From the NCBI GenBank assembly GCA_019314185.1, contig JAFCZU010000171.1:1-8023 (forward strand): a stretch of DNA of 8,023 nucleotides, written 5' to 3'. Below, one piece after another: positions 1 through 8,023 of this stretch (position 1 is its first letter; each line of letters opens with the position of its first letter). Below the pieces are notes generated by a model. It ran no database searches. It saw only the letters and a list, made by a program, of their open reading frames with translations, and was not told the origin of the DNA. The DNA comes from Deltaproteobacteria bacterium. Lineage in GTDB: Bacteria > Desulfobacterota > Desulfobacteria > Desulfobacterales > ETH-SRB1. The translations under genes were made by a program, and so were the position numbers.

Positions 1-914
1 GCGCGTGATTTAAGAAAGAAAATGGCTGGAAGAAGATGATATTTGTTTAATACCCGCATAATTTCCCCAAAAGGAGGCAATTTGTAGGGAGGAGCAAGAA
101 GTGGAGGACGTTTGATCTTTAAATAATCGGAAACCTGTTTGTGAAGCCTGTTTCTTTTTCCCTTGCTGCTTTTAACAGTTAGTGGAAAAAGTTTGCCTGA
201 AGGATGAAAAAAAATCGGGTAAAGTGGCACAGGCCTTTTTTTCTCCTCAACAACGATGCATTTTTTTAATCGTATGGATGAAAGCCATTTCGCTATTTGA
301 TTTGCATTTCCAATAGTGGCGGAAAGCAAAAGCAGTGGTATTCTGGAGGGAAGATATATCATTATTTCTTCCCAGACAACGCCCCTTTCTTTATCTCCTA
401 AAAAATGCGCTTCATCAAGAACAACCAGATCAGCGGACAGTGTCTCTCCTGAATGCATGGAATCGTACAACTGATTGCGAAGAATTTCGGTAGTCCCGAC
501 AATAATCGGCGCGCCGGGATTTTCTTTTCTATCGCCTGTTAATATGCCAACATTTTCCTTGCCGAATATCTTCGAAAACTCATTATACTTTGAATTGGAT
601 AAAGCCTTTAAAGGGGAAGCATACCACGACCTTCCGCCATTTGTATGTGTGCGGGCCATTGCTTTCTCAGCTATCCAGGTTTTGCCTGCTCCTGTTGGTG
701 CTGTGACAAGGCAGTCTGCTTTGCTTATTGCGGAAAGCGCCTCAAGCTGAAAGGGATCGGGTTTAAATGCCGATTTTTCGGGCACACCTATGGACGCAAA
801 AACTTTTTTCAGGCCGGCATCTATACCCGGTTTTAACTTTAGTCTCCGCAAAGCATTATCGGATTTTTTCTTTCGACCTCTTTTCCCTGGCCGATATTCG
901 TTTTGTTTATACAT
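1..914 (-). CDS. Ski2-like DEAH-box helicase, N-terminal part (runs off left edge)
   Basis: This is the first 304 codons of a superfamily 2 helicase, likely an ATP-dependent RNA or DNA unwinding enzyme. Visible in order are a basic N-terminus (residues 9-30), a Q-motif-like F55-Q56, Walker A TAPTGAGKT (71-79), motif Ia around PLKALSNSKY (101-110), TGD (127-129), motif Ib-like GTTEILRNQ (140-148), Walker B DEAHFLGD (167-174) and motif III SAT (198-200). AIFFLKSR at the cut end resembles the entry to the second RecA domain. The DEAHFLGD box and the TTEILRNQ segment are typical of the Ski2/Mtr4/HelY group rather than RhlE-type DEAD proteins. ATG at 914 is the only plausible start, since an in-frame TAA lies a few codons upstream. 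The Shine-Dalgarno is weak. The frame is intact to the window edge, so the truncation is a window effect. Family confidence is high; the substrate is unknown. Confidence 0.9.
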   Translation of the reverse strand, partial: MYKQNEYRPGKRGRKKKSDNALRRLKLKPGIDAGLKKVFASIGVPEKSAFKPDPFQLEALSAISKADCLVTAPTGAGKTWIAEKAMARTHTNGGRSWYASPLKALSNSKYNEFSKIFGKENVGILTGDRKENPGAPIIVGTTEILRNQLYDSMHSGETLSADLVVLDEAHFLGDKERGVVWEEIMIYLPSRIPLLLLSATIGNANQIAKWLSSIRLKKCIVVEEKKRPVPLYPIFFHPSGKLFPLTVKSSKGKRNRLHKQVSDYLKIKRPPLLAPPYKLPPFGEIMRVLNKYHLLPAIFFLKSR

Positions 915-1303
915 TAACTTTTTTGAGCTTTCATCCCGAGAGACATTTGCTTAGCTGTTTCTAAGTTATTAATTTAGATTGATTTTATCTAAGATATGCT
1001 ATTATAGCATTTAACAGTCTTCAGTCTATCCACCTGAGTATTTCTAAATAGAAAGTCAGTGTTCGTTCGTGTGGGTTTGTGGCTAATAATTTAAGCTATT
1101 CAAACCAGATGTGTTTTATTCAAAAAATTAAGTAACCATTCAGCCACTAAGTCACAAAAGGACTTTAATTTTAAAGGGTTATCAAAAAGAGAAAAAAGTT
1201 ATAGATACGGCGTATACAGTATATAAGATATTAAAATTATATTATATTAATTTAACATTATATTCTTTATTATAACAGCTTTAATTTATACTGGCAGGAA
1301 GTT
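915..1303. other. AT-rich intergenic region between helicase and yajD-like gene
   Basis: No credible gene is seen in these 389 bases. They hold the minus-strand promoter at 1001-1028 and three small inverted repeats: TTAGAT/ATCTAA (974-979 and 987-992), ATGCTA/TAGCAT (996-1010) and CTTTAA/TTAAAG (1163-1176). The stretch 1200-1290 is extremely A+T-rich with several -10-like hexamers but no clear -35, so no yajD promoter is called. The piece around 1055-1090 (GTTCGTTCGTGTGGGTTTGT) is G/T-rich and differs from its surroundings. It may be a decayed repeat, but only one copy is present here. Confidence 0.6.
1001..1028 (-). promoter_or_regulatory. Probable sigma-70 extended -10 promoter for the helicase gene
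   Basis: Read on the minus strand, a perfect TATAAT (1006 to 1001) is preceded by TGC (1009 to 1007), giving an extended -10. A -35-like TAGACT (1028 to 1023) lies 16 bases further upstream. Transcription would begin near 994, leaving a leader of about 80 bases before the ATG at 914. The -10 lies inside the small perfect palindrome ATGCTA-TTA-TAGCAT (996-1010), so a weaker plus-strand extended -10 (TGCTATTAT) is also present. Assignment is by consensus only. Confidence 0.5.
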
Positions 1304-1687
1304 ATGCTACTAAAAAAGACGCAGACAGAGGATGGCAAGCAGGGTCAGTTTATTGCCAAGGCCTTGCGTGACCGGGAGCTTCGGAAAAAAACCTATCGGG
1401 AGCGGGCGCTCAAGCTTTACCCGTGGGTCTGCGCGCGGTGCGGACGTGAATTCACAGGCAAGAAACTTCGTGAACTCACGATCCATCACAGGGATCACAA
1501 CCACGAAAACAATCCGTCTGACGGTAGTAACTGGGAGTTGCTATGTCTCTATTGTCATGACAATGAACACTCGCGGCATCTGGACGCGGAACATCATAAT
1601 GCGCTGACGCCGGGTGACGAGCAAGAGCCGCTTTTTACCCATAAGCCGTTCGCTGGTCTCGAAGCCTTGCTGAAAAATAAAAAGTAG
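1304..1687 (+). CDS. yajD: YajD-family HNH endonuclease-like protein
   Basis: The 127-residue protein has the HNH zinc-finger fold of the YajD family (about 115 residues in E. coli). The core RERALKLYPWVCARCGREF (32-50), followed by LRELTIHHRDHNH (55-67) and GSNWELLCLYCHDNEHS (74-90), closely resembles E. coli YajD from memory. C43/C46 and C81/C84 should bind structural zinc. H61-H62, N76 and H85/H89 form the presumed nuclease metal site. The tail HKPFAGLEALLKNKK also fits the family. A Shine-Dalgarno AGGAAG lies just upstream of ATG 1304. The family's physiological role is not established; nuclease activity is inferred from the fold. Its G+C is about 54% over 1321-1680, counted by eye, well above the roughly 40% or less of neighbouring genes, and it uses many GCG, CGG and CGC codons. 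This suggests recent transfer. Confidence 0.88.
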   Translation: MLLKKTQTEDGKQGQFIAKALRDRELRKKTYRERALKLYPWVCARCGREFTGKKLRELTIHHRDHNHENNPSDGSNWELLCLYCHDNEHSRHLDAEHHNALTPGDEQEPLFTHKPFAGLEALLKNKK

Positions 1688-1779
1688 CTGATCAATTCCT
1701 GGATCGAAAAAAAGCGCATAAGGTTCATTTCGGCAACGTTTCACATTCTCCACAAAAGAAAGCAAATGAGGTAAGCCCA

Positions 1780-2646
1780 TTGCTCTGGTTCATTCTTGCT
1801 TTTGCAACAGCATTTTGCGTCGCTACCGGAGATGCCTTAACAAAAAAGTTCTTTGGTCATTTTTCTCCTTATGAAATGGCTATAGCTGTCTCTTTGTATA
1901 GCCTTCCGTTTTTGCTGATTACCTTCCCTTTAATTACCATTCCCAAGTTGGATAATGTGTTCTGGCGGAGCGTTTTAATATTAGTTCCTGTTGATATCTT
2001 TGCGTTATATCTCTATATGAAGGCGCTCAAGCTTTCACCTCTTTCACTTTCAATTCCTTTTTTGTCTTTTACTCCTGTTTTTATGATATTAACCGGCTTC
2101 CTCGTCCTGAATGAGAGTCCGAATGTCTGGGGAGTTTGCGGAATCTCATTTGTGGTGGCAGGAAGCTATGTATTGTATGGCTCAAAGATAAAGCATGGAT
2201 ACTTTGCTCCATTTCGCGCTATCCGCAAAGAGTCAGGATCATGGTTGATGCTTGTCGTTGCTTTGCTCTATTCGATTTTAGCTGTTTTGGGCAAAAAGGC
2301 GATTCAGCATTCCTCCCCGATATTTTTCGGCTTTTTCTTCCTTACCTCCGTTAATGTTATAATATTGTTTCTCTTCCCGTTGCTCTCAAAAATTAACTGG
2401 AATGCTTTGTTTAAAATGCCTGGCAAAGGAATATGTGTCGGGGTTACTCTCTATTTGCATATACTGCTTCATGTTTTTGCCATTAGTATGGTTGAAGCGG
2501 TTTATATGATATCCGTCAAACGAATGAGTATTCTATTTGCCGTTATATATGGCTGGCTTCTATTCAAGGAAACCGATATCAAAAGCAGAATTTTGGGAGC
2601 AGCTCTCATGTTTCTGGGAATTATTGTCATAACACTGCTGGGTTGA
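1780..2646 (+). CDS. EamA/DMT-family membrane permease
   Basis: This is a 288-residue integral membrane protein of the drug/metabolite transporter superfamily, with two EamA repeats and about ten predicted helices. Approximate spans are 2-20, 31-53, 63-83, 88-110, 115-134, 155-172, 180-203, 217-236, 238-263 and 270-287. A charged cytoplasmic loop (135-153) separates the halves. Typical EamA marks are the helix-4 stretch SIPFLSFTPVF followed by GFLVLNESP (91-114), and the mirrored YGWLLFKETD near 257-266 in repeat two. Start is TTG at 1780, supported by GAGGT at 1768-1772 with 7-base spacing; the nearby ATG at 1766 hits a stop at once. The gene is 92 bases downstream of the yajD-like gene on the same strand, possibly co-transcribed. 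Substrate cannot be told; amino-acid or metabolite export is common in the family. Confidence 0.87.
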   Translation: MLWFILAFATAFCVATGDALTKKFFGHFSPYEMAIAVSLYSLPFLLITFPLITIPKLDNVFWRSVLILVPVDIFALYLYMKALKLSPLSLSIPFLSFTPVFMILTGFLVLNESPNVWGVCGISFVVAGSYVLYGSKIKHGYFAPFRAIRKESGSWLMLVVALLYSILAVLGKKAIQHSSPIFFGFFFLTSVNVIILFLFPLLSKINWNALFKMPGKGICVGVTLYLHILLHVFAISMVEAVYMISVKRMSILFAVIYGWLLFKETDIKSRILGAALMFLGIIVITLLG

Positions 2647-2874
2647 AAAACTATTAGCTTCGTTCTAAAACCAGCAACCATCTGGCCTTTACGGATAGAG
2701 CAATTTACTCTGTTCAGATGTTCCCAGAGGTTGGACAAATTTCTTTGCCATATTGTTTTTGAAAGTCTGGGAAAATCATACAAACTCTTGAATTCTTGGA
2801 CCCTCTTTTTCAACTAAATTGAAGAAGAACTTCTTTTAATAAACCGTGGGAGATAACCCGAATCCATTTTCTCT
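2647..2874. other. Intergenic region with no supported gene
   Basis: No plus-strand frame is open here. A minus-strand frame runs from about 2813 to 2502 and overlaps the 3' end of the permease gene. It lacks a recognisable family and I do not call it. A short AT-rich inverted repeat AAGAAG/CTTCTT (2822-2835) followed by TTTT could be a weak terminator for the permease transcript, but the stem has little G+C. Confidence 0.5.
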
Positions 2875-2901
2875 TAAGTTGTTAAGAAAAAATACCGATA
2901 A
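2875..2901 (+). promoter_or_regulatory. Sigma-28 (FliA)-type flagellar promoter
   Basis: TAAG (2875-2878) and ACCGATAA (2894-2901) are separated by exactly 15 bases. This matches the classic sigma-28 pattern TAAA-N15-GCCGATAA at 3 of 4 and 7 of 8 positions. It lies 38 bases upstream of the flagellar rod-type gene, so it would give a leader of about 30 bases containing the Shine-Dalgarno AAGGAG (2927-2932). Agreement of motif, spacing and the identity of the downstream gene makes this a convincing call. The -35 part also lies in a small inverted repeat CTTAA-GTTG-TTAAG. Confidence 0.75.
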
Positions 2902-2939
2902 AATAGTAAAAATAAGAGTGTTTTTTAAGGAGAAAGCAA

Positions 2940-3278
2940 ATGCCACGGATTCCAGCTTTAAATATAGCAGTATCTTCCATCTTGGCTTTAGAAAAGAAAC
3001 TTGATGTAACGGCCAATAATATCGCAAATGTAAACACGGATGAGTTCAAGAAGAGCCGGGTTATTTTTCAGACAGGAGATTCGTCCGGTGTTTCTGTAAG
3101 GATAACCAAGGTAGATACACCAGGCACAATTCAGCCTAATGGGCTGGAATCATCCAATGTGGTTTTTGCGGAAGAGTTTGTCAACCTTATTACCACGCAA
3201 CACTCCAATACCGCTAATGTTCAGGTTATAGAGACCGAAGCTGAGATGCAAGGGCATATGCTCGACATTTTTGCTTGA
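2940..3278 (+). CDS. Short flagellar basal-body rod/hook-type protein
   Basis: The 112-residue protein carries both hallmarks of the flagellar rod/hook axial family. The N-terminal motif LDVTANNIANVNTDEFKKSR (21-40) corresponds to the Flg_bb_rod segment. The C-terminal SSNVVFAEEFVNLI to MLDIFA (71-112) corresponds to Flg_bbr_C, whose heptad-like coil pairs with the N-terminal helix in assembled rods. Only about 30 residues (41-70) join them, so it is shorter than usual FlgC (roughly 130-150 residues) and far shorter than FlgF or FlgG. The usual N-T-x-G-[YF]-K turn reads NTDEFK. AAGGAG at 2927-2932 supports ATG 2940. No flgB, fliE or other flagellar gene adjoins it; it stands alone behind a sigma-28-type promoter. 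It could be a minimal rod subunit or a late, FliA-dependent accessory axial protein. Family membership is secure, the specific role is not. Confidence 0.85.
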   Translation: MPRIPALNIAVSSILALEKKLDVTANNIANVNTDEFKKSRVIFQTGDSSGVSVRITKVDTPGTIQPNGLESSNVVFAEEFVNLITTQHSNTANVQVIETEAEMQGHMLDIFA

Positions 3279-3350
3279 GATGAAATCGCCTGCTATCGGC
3301 TAAGGGCTGGGCAAAAAATAATTTGGGTTTGCCATAGTTATATTTAAATT

Positions 3351-3464
3351 TCATTTCAAGCGTCTTGAGGCCGTCAGGCCGAGTTCTTGCATTTAATGGA
3401 TGAACTTCTTAATTGCGCCCAAAATGGTCATGAATTGAACAAAATGGACTTTTTTACGAGACCA
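3351..3464 (+). repeat. Decayed right-hand part of the ~190-bp palindromic repeat (copy R1)
   Basis: This stretch aligns with the right-hand 60% of the two full copies. It shares the central GAGGCCGTCAGGCCGAGTTC, then CTTGCATTT, GATGAAC, TTCTTAATTGCGCCCAAAATGG, GAATTGAACAAAATGGACTTT and TTTACGAG. The terminal TTCATC is altered to ACCATT, and the left arm is unrecognisable in 3279-3350. It begins 16 bases beyond the pyrG stop, in the same orientation as the other copies. The central GGCC-GTCA-GGCC can form a small hairpin. It is probably an older, partly erased insertion. The flanking 3279-3350 holds only a weak GGCAAA/TTTGCC hairpin (3310-3333). Confidence 0.85.
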
Positions 3465-3480
3465 TTTTTATTAAAGCTTT

Positions 3481-5142
<1,662 letters not shown>

Positions 5143-5168
5143 TTACCACTTATCCCTAAATTAATTAT

Positions 5169-5357
5169 GATGGCGTCGTAAAAAAGTCTTTTGTGAACGG
5201 CTTTGAGCATTTTGGGAAAAAGCAATTGAGATGTTCATCGTCAAGAAATGCAAGCTGTTTGAGGCCCTTAGGCAGAGTTCTTGCATTTTAGATGAACATT
5301 TCAATTGCGCCCAAAATGGTCATGAAGTGAACAAAATCGACTTTTTACGAATTCATC
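5169..5357 (+). mobile_element. MITE-like palindromic element, full copy R2, with AATTAT target duplication
   Basis: This is a 189-bp non-coding element from GATGGCG to TTCATC. Outer arms match as inverted repeats (GATGGCGTCGTAAAAAAGTC against GATGAATTCGTAAAAAGTC). Inner arms GAGCATTTTGGG...CAATTGAGATGTTCATC match the complement of GATGAACATTTCAATTG...CCCAAAATGGTC, and AAATGCAAG (5246-5254) pairs with CTTGCATTT (5280-5288). Nearly the whole element folds as one hairpin with a loop of about 25 bases. Perfect 6-bp direct repeats AATTAT flank it (5163-5168 and 5358-5363). If the ends are drawn as TGATG/CATCA, the duplication is 4 bp, ATTA. No ORF or transposase is inside, so mobility would need a transposase in trans. 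The right end overlaps the last codon of the adjacent minus-strand gene and supplies its TGA. Confidence 0.88.
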
Positions 5358-6207
5358 AATTATATGTTTTTTTAAATTTTTCAATAATCTTATTGATTTC
5401 GCTTAATCCCTCTGATTCGGCTTGTTTTGGAACTACCTGCGAGTCCTGAAGATAAATAGATTGTAATTGTTTGATATCAAAAAGGTTCTTTGAGAAATCA
5501 AGGTTTGTTTTTATATCATTCACTATGATTTCACGCGTCAGGATATTGTTTTGATAATATTCTATATGCATTGGATACCAGGTATTATCAATATTCCGCC
5601 ATTTATTATATCTTAGCTCCATTGAATCTTTATGAGCAGTGTCAGATCCTTTTGATAGAATCAAACGAAAAGGACGGAACGTATCTTTATTTATCCATAA
5701 TTGTGAAACAGATTCATCTGGATATTGTGCGCCCAACACATATGCTGTTTTGCCGTGAAATCGTCCAAGGCTCGCAATAGATACATCTATTCCAAGCAGA
5801 TAGAGTTGATGCTCTAACAATGCCCGGCAGCGGTAGAGAATGATATCCTTATAATGGTCAAACATTGATTCATGGGTGGTTGTGATTTTCCCGTCGATTA
5901 CTGTCAACGTCTGACCCTTTGAAATAACACGAAATCTTTGAATGTTTTCAGACCGTATATCTGAACGAAACTCTTCCGGGAAAACATATTTTAATGTTTC
6001 GTTCAGTTCAACTGTTTTTGTCTCAGAGCTGCTATTATATAAAATCTGTCTTTGAGAAACCAACAGGGTTTTGGTTTTACCGTATTTGTCTGTCATTAAT
6101 TCCAGGATATGCGGGCCCTGTAATACATATGCATTTGCAGGCAGATAAAAAAAACCGATTGTTGCAAGGCAAAGTAAAGAAATATATAATTTTAGATAAT
6201 TAATCAA
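5356..6207 (-). CDS. Secreted/periplasmic protein of unknown function, possibly LolA-like
   Basis: The 283-residue protein starts with a clear Sec signal peptide: K6, a hydrophobic stretch 7-20, and a cleavage-like ANA-Y at 26/27. No lipobox cysteine is present, so it is predicted to be soluble in the periplasm or exported. The body is rich in alternating polar and hydrophobic strands. Segments such as TAYVLGAQYPDESVSQLWIN (154-173), FRPFRLILSK (177-186) and MELRYNKWRNIDNTWYPMHI (196-215) recall the half-barrel repeats of LolA/LolB-fold lipoprotein-sorting proteins. That is a resemblance, not a firm family call. The start is TTG at 6207 with a poor Shine-Dalgarno. An in-frame TGA two codons upstream and the signal peptide leave little alternative, except ATT at 6210. 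It lies between eno and pyrG, bounded on both sides by repeat copies, and its TGA stop is contributed by R2. Confidence 0.75.
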   Translation of the reverse strand: MINYLKLYISLLCLATIGFFYLPANAYVLQGPHILELMTDKYGKTKTLLVSQRQILYNSSSETKTVELNETLKYVFPEEFRSDIRSENIQRFRVISKGQTLTVIDGKITTTHESMFDHYKDIILYRCRALLEHQLYLLGIDVSIASLGRFHGKTAYVLGAQYPDESVSQLWINKDTFRPFRLILSKGSDTAHKDSMELRYNKWRNIDNTWYPMHIEYYQNNILTREIIVNDIKTNLDFSKNLFDIKQLQSIYLQDSQVVPKQAESEGLSEINKIIEKFKKTYN

Positions 6208-6228
6208 AATTCAGGTAATTTCTCAATA

Positions 6229-6246
6229 AGGGTTTGCGCAAACCCT
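6229..6246. repeat. 18-bp perfect palindrome upstream of the secreted-protein gene
   Basis: AGGGTTTGCGCAAACCCT reads identically on both strands with no spacer. It lies 21 bases before the TTG start at 6207 and directly abuts the target duplication of repeat R3. It could be an operator for a dimeric regulator, or the base of an RNA hairpin in the leader. It is unrelated in sequence to the R2/R3 element. Only one copy is present in the window. Confidence 0.7.
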
Positions 6247-6252
6247 AAGTTT

Positions 6253-6442
6253 GATGGCGTCGTAAAAAGTCTTTTGTGAACGACTTTTGAGCATTTTTGG
6301 GAAAAAGCAATTAAGATGTTTATCGTTAAGAAATGCAAGCTGTTTGAGACCGTCAGGCCGAGTTCTCACATTTTAGATGAACATCTTAATCGCGCCCAAA
6401 ATGGTTGTGAAGTGAACAAAATCGAGTTTTTACGAGTTCATC
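6253..6442 (+). mobile_element. MITE-like palindromic element, full copy R3, with AAGTTT target duplication
   Basis: This is a 190-bp second full copy in the same orientation as R2, about nine bases in ten identical by eye. The ends are GATGGCGTCGTAAAAAGTC and, on the complement, GATGAACTCGTAAAAACTC. The inner arms GCATTTTTGGG...CAATTAAGATGTTTATC and GATGAACATCTTAATCG...CCCAAAATGG pair over most of their length. Flanking 6-bp direct repeats AAGTTT (6247-6252 and 6443-6448) are perfect and differ from those of R2, so each copy moved independently. If the ends are drawn as TGATG/CATCA, the duplication is 4 bp, AGTT. It lies 50 bases after the eno stop and separates eno from the secreted-protein gene. 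Confidence 0.88.
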
Positions 6443-6498
6443 AAGTTTTGGTAACTAAAAAAGTAACAGTTCATGGTTTATGGTTTTGATTTTTGTTT

Positions 6499-7785
<1,287 letters not shown>

Positions 7786-7839
7786 CTAAATGGATTAAGG
7801 TTTGCCTGATATTTTAGTAATAACAACAGGTTAAATAAT

Positions 7840-7856
7840 TATTACTGTTAGTAATA
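7840..7856. promoter_or_regulatory. Operator-like inverted repeat in the eno leader
   Basis: TATTACT-GTT-AGTAATA is a 17-bp symmetrical site with a 3-base centre. A third half-site, AGTAATAA, stands upstream on the plus strand at 7816-7823 and can also pair with TTATTACT at 7839-7846. The cluster lies between the putative eno transcription start and the eno ATG, so it could bind a dimeric regulator or form a leader hairpin. AT-richness of the region raises the chance of coincidence. Confidence 0.4.
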
Positions 7857-7871
7857 TTGTTAATTCCGAAC

Positions 7872-7899
7872 TTGACAAATTATCGAAAAATGATACCCT
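7872..7899 (+). promoter_or_regulatory. Possible plus-strand promoter facing the eno promoter
   Basis: A perfect TTGACA (7872-7877) is followed after 16 bases by TACCCT (7894-7899), a poor -10. Its -35 region and that of eno form an inverted repeat CTTGACA/TGTCAAG (7871-7877 and 7913-7919). The two promoters would overlap face to face, implying competition between polymerases. It could serve the open frame starting at 7954. The weak -10 makes this tentative. Confidence 0.35.
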
Positions 7900-7918
7900 G
7901 CTTAAACTGTTATGTCAA
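7890..7918 (-). promoter_or_regulatory. Sigma-70 promoter for eno
   Basis: On the minus strand a perfect -35 TTGACA (7918 to 7913) is followed after exactly 17 bases by TATCAT (7895 to 7890), five of six matches to TATAAT. Transcription would start near 7883, giving an eno leader of about 110 bases. Motif quality and spacing make this the best promoter in the window by consensus. Confidence 0.7.
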
Positions 7919-7953
7919 GAATCGGTCGTTGATTTAATTTTATACTGGTTACC

Positions 7954-8023
7954 ATGGAACACATAAACCTTTATACCAAAGCCCATCTTTTTGTATCGGC
8001 AATAAGAATAATTGAATATAAGG
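7954..8023 (+). CDS. Start of an unrecognised gene (runs off right edge)
   Basis: An open frame begins at ATG 7954 and encodes MEHINLYTKAHLFVSAIRII followed by EYK to the window edge (23 codons). The helical, mixed hydrophobic and basic start could be the first helix of a small DNA-binding or regulatory protein, but too little is visible to assign a family. There is no convincing Shine-Dalgarno. A TATACT hexamer at 7941-7946 is too close to serve as its -10 with a normal leader. The call rests on orientation, the divergent intergenic region and the absence of stops to the edge. Confidence 0.45.
   Translation, partial: MEHINLYTKAHLFVSAIRIIEYK

Follow-up and report, generated by a model that had tools for sequence, protein, structure and literature searches.

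What are the two similar palindromic repeats that lie in the pyrG–lolA and lolA–eno gaps of contig JAFCZU010000171.1 (Deltaproteobacteria bacterium, Desulfobacterales, ETH-SRB1; GenBank assembly GCA_019314185.1), and which enzyme moves them? Within the 8,023 nucleotides analysed (positions 1 to 8,023 of the contig, hereafter the window), copy A occupies 5169..5357 on the plus strand (189 bp) between direct repeats AATTAT at 5163..5168 and 5358..5363, and copy B, of the same lineage, occupies 6253..6442 on the plus strand (190 bp) between AAGTTT at 6247..6252 and 6443..6448. Both have GATG...CATC termini and 19-bp imperfect inverted ends (in copy A, left GATGGCGTCGTAAAAAAGTC, with one extra A, and right GATGAATTCGTAAAAAGTC) around a long hairpin core, and they agree at 171 of 191 aligned columns. 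The coordinates, termini and perfect 6-bp repeats given in the original prediction, which was made from the letters alone, were all exact. Its statement that the copies carry no open reading frame (ORF) stands for frames of at least 60 aa wholly inside copy A or copy B, of which there are none, and has to be amended for a 72-aa frame at 5231–5449 that overlaps copy A. The inverted arms that it described were also recovered: folded as single strands together with their duplications, the copies exceeded dinucleotide shuffles in stability (z = −7.9 for A and −3.8 for B), with 0/200 shuffles folding as well as the real sequence in each case. Short, non-coding, bounded by terminal inverted repeats and flanked by target duplications, the window copies have the make-up of miniature inverted-repeat transposable elements (MITEs). 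We consider it highly probable (roughly 0.88) that the element is a non-autonomous MITE, and that the DDE transposase of an insertion sequence (IS) of ~1.9 kb recognises its ends and directs its insertion to AT-rich 6-bp targets.

A local indication of mobility comes from the orthologous gaps of a relative (G614, locus L220), which retains the pyrG–lolA–eno order with 91%, 84% and 93% identity for PyrG, LolA and Eno over the aligned parts. There the element is absent from both gaps, the presence/absence difference by which MITEs are recognised. At site B, the element stands in the window between CAATAAG...AAGTTT and AAGTTTTGG, and the L220 counterpart, CAATAAGTTTTGG, contains AAGTTT only once; at site A, the L220 flank AAATTATTTATATG is similar, but not letter-identical, to the window's AAATTA-ATTAT / ATG. 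None of the gaps inspected in five other relatives holds the window's element, and in Eth-SRB1 (G604, locus L221), a relative of the window host, the lolA–eno gap carries a different GATG-ended element. G604 was recognised as Eth-SRB1 by its contig C40, in which L112 of the named genome occurs without any difference. Occupation of all orthologous loci, which the original prediction had named as an argument against mobility, was thus not what we found. The lolA–pyrG gap of L221, corresponding to copy A's place in the window, contains another repeat-like sequence, GCAGATTACGCC....

To characterise the duplications more broadly, Hamming scans for the ends were used to compile a set of short elements. 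The window and 2.4 Mb of the G604 genome contributed to it, as did 119 pattern loci and 20 low-copy loci, giving 208 elements, 205 of them with flanks. A duplication of 5–8 bp was present in 119/205, a count to be read with the scan's preference for partner ends that give a duplication wherever several were possible; in an earlier set, built with a best-match regular expression, which passes over weaker ends, and with partners picked by fewest mismatches rather than by duplication, it was present in 68/95. The longest perfect duplication was 6 bp in 100 elements, 7 bp in 15, 8 bp in one, 5 bp in three, 4 bp in none and ≤3 bp in 86, while left and right flanks taken from different elements matched over ≥5 bp in 2.2% of control comparisons. 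Among the 100 six-bp duplications, 99 begin with A, 94 finish with T, 93 fit A....T and 48 fit AANNTT, in agreement with the A-N4-T preference proposed from the two window sites. The alternative of a 4-bp duplication, also raised at the outset, is disfavoured because seven perfect 6-mers that break A....T nevertheless match on both sides, which a 4-bp duplication does not predict.

The original prediction had recognised no parent insertion sequence and called for a transposase gene bounded by such ends. Searching seven long-contig genomes by pattern yielded, in G706, four identical 1910-bp IS copies (L391–L394) that start with GATGGACTCGTAAAAAGTC, end with GACTTTTTACAGGACCATC and are each flanked by a 6-bp duplication. 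Their transposase, of 534–538 aa depending on the choice of start, matches Pfam DDE_Tnp_1_6, DDE_Tnp_1 and DUF772; its best NCBIfam model is IS1182, at 173.6 bits against a family cut-off of 270, followed by ISNCY_1 at 60.5 bits. At E 1e-30, 5071 of 8000 scored candidates were homologous, and transposases were found in 45/389 sampled Desulfobacterales genomes, with at most three candidates scored per genome, a scope that holds for all presence and absence counts of this gene below. We also picked IS copies from the list of 45 transposase-bearing genomes. The six chosen, spread over five genomes other than G706, measured 1879–1916 bp, had ends with 0–3 mismatches and showed a perfect 6-bp duplication in 6/6. 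Altogether, 11 full copies in seven genomes were examined. All have such ends (0–3 mismatches of 16), and a perfect 6-bp duplication flanks 10 of them. Across seven aligned transposases, D152, D360 and E485 are invariant and, read as a motif, would constitute the catalytic triad. The Eth-SRB1 genome contains a broken IS copy whose start is such an end. No PDB chain matched the transposase at E 0.1; its one plasmid relative, from Microvirga, shares 38% identity, and viral contigs yielded no relative. In G690, G709 and G737, seven places 93–94% identical to the G706 transposase are each listed with one TAA; in one of them, L398, 534 codons can be read without interruption from the second start, so that the listed stop falls within the first residues of the query.

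The ends themselves are far more widespread than the IS. Exact GATGNNNTCGTAAAAAGTC ends occur in 255/389 sampled Desulfobacterales genomes, reaching 302 in G429, while a reversed control pattern gave a single match in each of 2/389. A narrower pattern was present in 54/395 genomes sampled across the phylum, and the left-end pattern was found in at least 119 stretches of a genome collection, the matches listed coming mostly from Desulfobacterales, Desulfobulbaceae or Deltaproteobacteria, with exceptions including one Candidatus Aminicenantes. The window lineage itself was matched in 80/389 Desulfobacterales genomes (two best candidates per genome scored). In G604, near-identical elements have different flanks, and 61/68 elements were intergenic by a simple ORF call, compared with 490/4000 random segments. 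The whole element had no match among plasmids and phages at E 0.1; five plasmid matches to a 32-base end, at E 9, were attributed to chance, and the end pattern occurs in 20 viral contigs, several times within open frames. A full-text search of open-licence literature returned no title or abstract opening that names the family. In contigs of G023, many end matches lie ~120–139 bases from the contig start, as if the contigs broke within elements.

What the ends enclose is diverse. With 22 bp removed at either end, 196 cores fell into 20 single-linkage clusters, although this method can join related cores in chains, and decayed copies may account for some of the small clusters. Two clusters hold 172/196 cores, the window cluster has four members in that set, and in 12 clusters at least one element has a duplication. 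Several unrelated cores are found between ends of one and the same kind. Some of these cores contain palindromes resembling CGTC-type repetitive extragenic palindromic (REP) units, as defined for this analysis. In the 2.4 Mb of G604, chosen regardless of ends, 34/48 such units are found no more than 150 bp from an end (with three mismatches or fewer allowed), compared with ~3% of random places, and 29/48 fall within called elements. Conversely, 48/208 elements contain a CGTC-like unit, 25 of these 48 an inverted pair and 28 a duplication; the window copies belong to a core cluster other than that of the REP-unit elements. Two readings fit, namely that REP pairs are cargo of the GATG-ended element or that they arose within it. 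No dedicated transposase for CGTC REPs is reported in the cited part of their 2013 description (PMC3733652).

Taken together, these observations outline a mechanism in which the DDE transposase of the ~1.9-kb IS, whose frame is open in full IS copies, would recognise the 19-bp ends of the MITE (GATGNNNTCGTAAAAAGTC) and insert it into an AT-rich 6-bp target (A....T, often AANNTT), which would then be duplicated. Because ends are alike on IS and MITE, and the duplications are equal in length and base preference, we infer mobilisation of the MITE in trans by the IS transposase. Many hosts have many ends and no detectable transposase, which makes it probable that most copies are dormant. Ends occur in 38/45 genomes with the transposase versus 217/344 without it (Fisher p = 0.004), an association partly built in, as the IS copies' own ends were counted and kinship was ignored. 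Several results weigh against this reading, in addition to the pairing preference of the duplication scan: in those 217 genomes, ends occur without a transposase; only four of 17 genomes with ≥100 exact ends possess it; in G604, no intact autonomous copy was seen in 2.4 of 3.3 Mb, and a whole-genome protein search returned the fragment only; one full IS copy (G008) has the ends but lacks a duplication; and 86/205 short elements lack a duplication of ≥5 bp. Copies of this last kind had been named beforehand as a potential argument against mobility, and their coexistence with 119 duplicated ones is as expected for a mixture of young and old copies. Also unfavourable is that no IS–MITE similarity beyond the 19-bp ends was noted, without a systematic test, which gives the MITE little resemblance to an internally deleted form of any IS seen here.

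The scarcity of the DDE transposase in MITE-rich genomes might instead indicate that another enzyme, such as a single-copy host transposase or a REP-associated tyrosine transposase (RAYT) acting on the hairpin, moves the elements, and that the IS captured their ends. The palindromic cores, including REP-like units, do resemble RAYT substrates, and RAYT-like genes are present in Eth-SRB1. We regard this as improbable: the duplications of MITE and IS match in length and base preference, and the three RAYT-like stretches in G604 have no flanking end pair, two having single R ends 0.7–2.1 kb away and the third none within 2.5 kb. RAYT-mobilised REP units are not known to have a target duplication, unlike the window copies with their perfect 6-bp duplications and GATG ends, and target duplications are not known from IS200/IS605-type enzymes. 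Still less credible, to the point of being very nearly dismissible, is a fixed regulatory or structural role for the repeats, for instance as attenuators, in place of mobility. Stable intergenic hairpins with a conserved fold would suit such a role, but it is contradicted by the empty L220 gaps, and the different GATG-ended element in one L221 gap, the target duplications, the unrelated cores sharing ends and the lack of any match in Rfam also speak against it. The proposal that the window copies arose by transposition rather than local duplication is supported by the duplications, the empty sites and an autonomous IS with such ends and a 6-bp duplication of its own.

Granted that the element is a MITE mobilised by this IS, its hairpin still calls for an explanation. 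Of 30 window-lineage loci retrieved, 29 could be delimited at both ends, with a perfect 5–9 bp duplication in 12 and ≤1 mismatch at 6 bp in 17. We aligned 24 of the 29 together with the two window copies (26 sequences; L190, L194, L198, L204 and L211 omitted). The resulting fold has 65 pairs, 35 of them changed on both sides, counts that relatedness among the sequences inflates; 94.5% of cells are paired and 0/500 shuffles reached any of five measures, a comparison that favours the fold, which was derived from the same alignment. The covariation score was 0.389 and fell to at most 0.069 when the partner was shifted by 1–3 columns, and the inner stem carries double changes in 17 of 18 pairs. 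Judged from these sequences, the core hairpin of the window lineage is kept by compensatory changes. The statement rests on this lineage, the 133-bp and 150-bp types having aligned poorly (5–18 pairs, 4–9 with double changes).

Such a pattern could also result from template switching or conversion between arms, since entire inner stems vary between sequences yet remain complementary. Copying of this kind should, however, erase bulges, and the unpaired bulge columns are conserved in at least 24/26 sequences; one-sided pair changes, mainly to G-U, are likewise present within stems. Because the asymmetric bulges are conserved, we favour selection on the folded form over passive copying between arms, and consider the latter possible but rather unlikely. 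Selection may act on single-stranded DNA while the element transposes, or on an RNA hairpin through which insertion between genes would be tolerated. Strand-specific selection on RNA was considered and set aside, as the wobble counts are not decisive: G-U exceeds A-C pairs by 65 to 19 cells overall, and the excess shrinks to 29 versus 17 cells, and 16 versus 16 positions, for pairs predicted on both strands, which is also in line with arm copying. More speculatively, the IS family might mobilise CGTC-type REP palindromes, with unrelated hairpins as swappable cargo selected for shape rather than sequence, the hairpin aiding transposition or protecting the host transcript.

Several other candidates for a parent or gene-carrying element were discarded. 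DDE_Tnp_1 (PF01609) genes of 12 MITE-rich genomes occupied 42 places, of which 30 were cut out and 18 checked for terminal repeats, none having these ends; one of those places, L159 in G023, overlaps a fragment of the parent transposase. A supposed gene-carrying element around a sigma-factor gene (L058) turned out to take its left end from a separate short element. In G629, a 1626-bp pair consists of two 151-bp elements around an ORF that, by eye, is transporter-like, and four long end pairs in G604 enclose ordinary-looking genes. At L146:231-2445, an element of the 133-bp type is broken at the palindrome and followed by a DDE transposase gene (491 codons, Pfam DDE_Tnp_1, no NCBIfam family), as if another IS had entered the hairpin.

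The window encodes a helicase (−), an HNH nuclease (+), an EamA transporter (+), a flagellar rod protein (+), pyrG (−), a lolA-like gene (−, called from a Pfam LolA_like match below its cut-off) and eno (−), with copy A in the pyrG–lolA gap and copy B in the lolA–eno gap. The original prediction of two copies was borne out for A and B and missed a decayed third one. This copy C (3279..3466, plus strand) is clear at 3357–3454 (repeats D2 and D3) and has its right end, CATT, at 3466; its left half aligns poorly and its left end is uncertain, GATGAAATCG at 3279 possibly being it, which would give 188 bp. Inspection of its flanks revealed no duplication. Just ahead of copy B, a 16-bp perfect palindrome, GGGTTTGCGCAAACCC (6230–6245; region 6227–6249), has TAAG on either side; it is absent from L220 and may be a separate tiny insertion.

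The analysis thus proposes a parent for a very abundant repeat family of the Desulfobacterales, and the covarying hairpin allows a direct test of whether fold or sequence is selected in a bacterial mini-transposon. The parent IS resembles IS1182 and ISNCY/ISDol1 in having one main ORF with DDE domains, IS1182 being the best model, and departs from IS1182 in scoring below that family's cut-off. The ISDol1 group, compared by description, makes 6–7 bp duplications. CGTC REPs, apparently without a dedicated transposase according to the cited part of PMC3733652, are linked here to a testable DDE transposase, and differ from the units described there in sitting inside elements with their own ends, of which 28/48 have a duplication. 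As summarised in the cited part of PMC10969869, bacterial MITEs are shorter than 500 bp, with terminal inverted repeats, flanking direct repeats, intergenic locations and stable stem-loops, and the window element shares its size, inverted ends, direct repeats, intergenic place and stem-loop with them. Among the MITEs described there, Chunjie, a 235-bp element of Geobacter uraniireducens, comes from a fellow former deltaproteobacterium, the likeness being by description rather than sequence. In contrast to the bacterial MITEs of that account, the present family combines one set of ends with several unrelated cores, shows strong base-pair covariation in the window lineage, and has its ends in nearly two-thirds of the sampled genomes of a single order.
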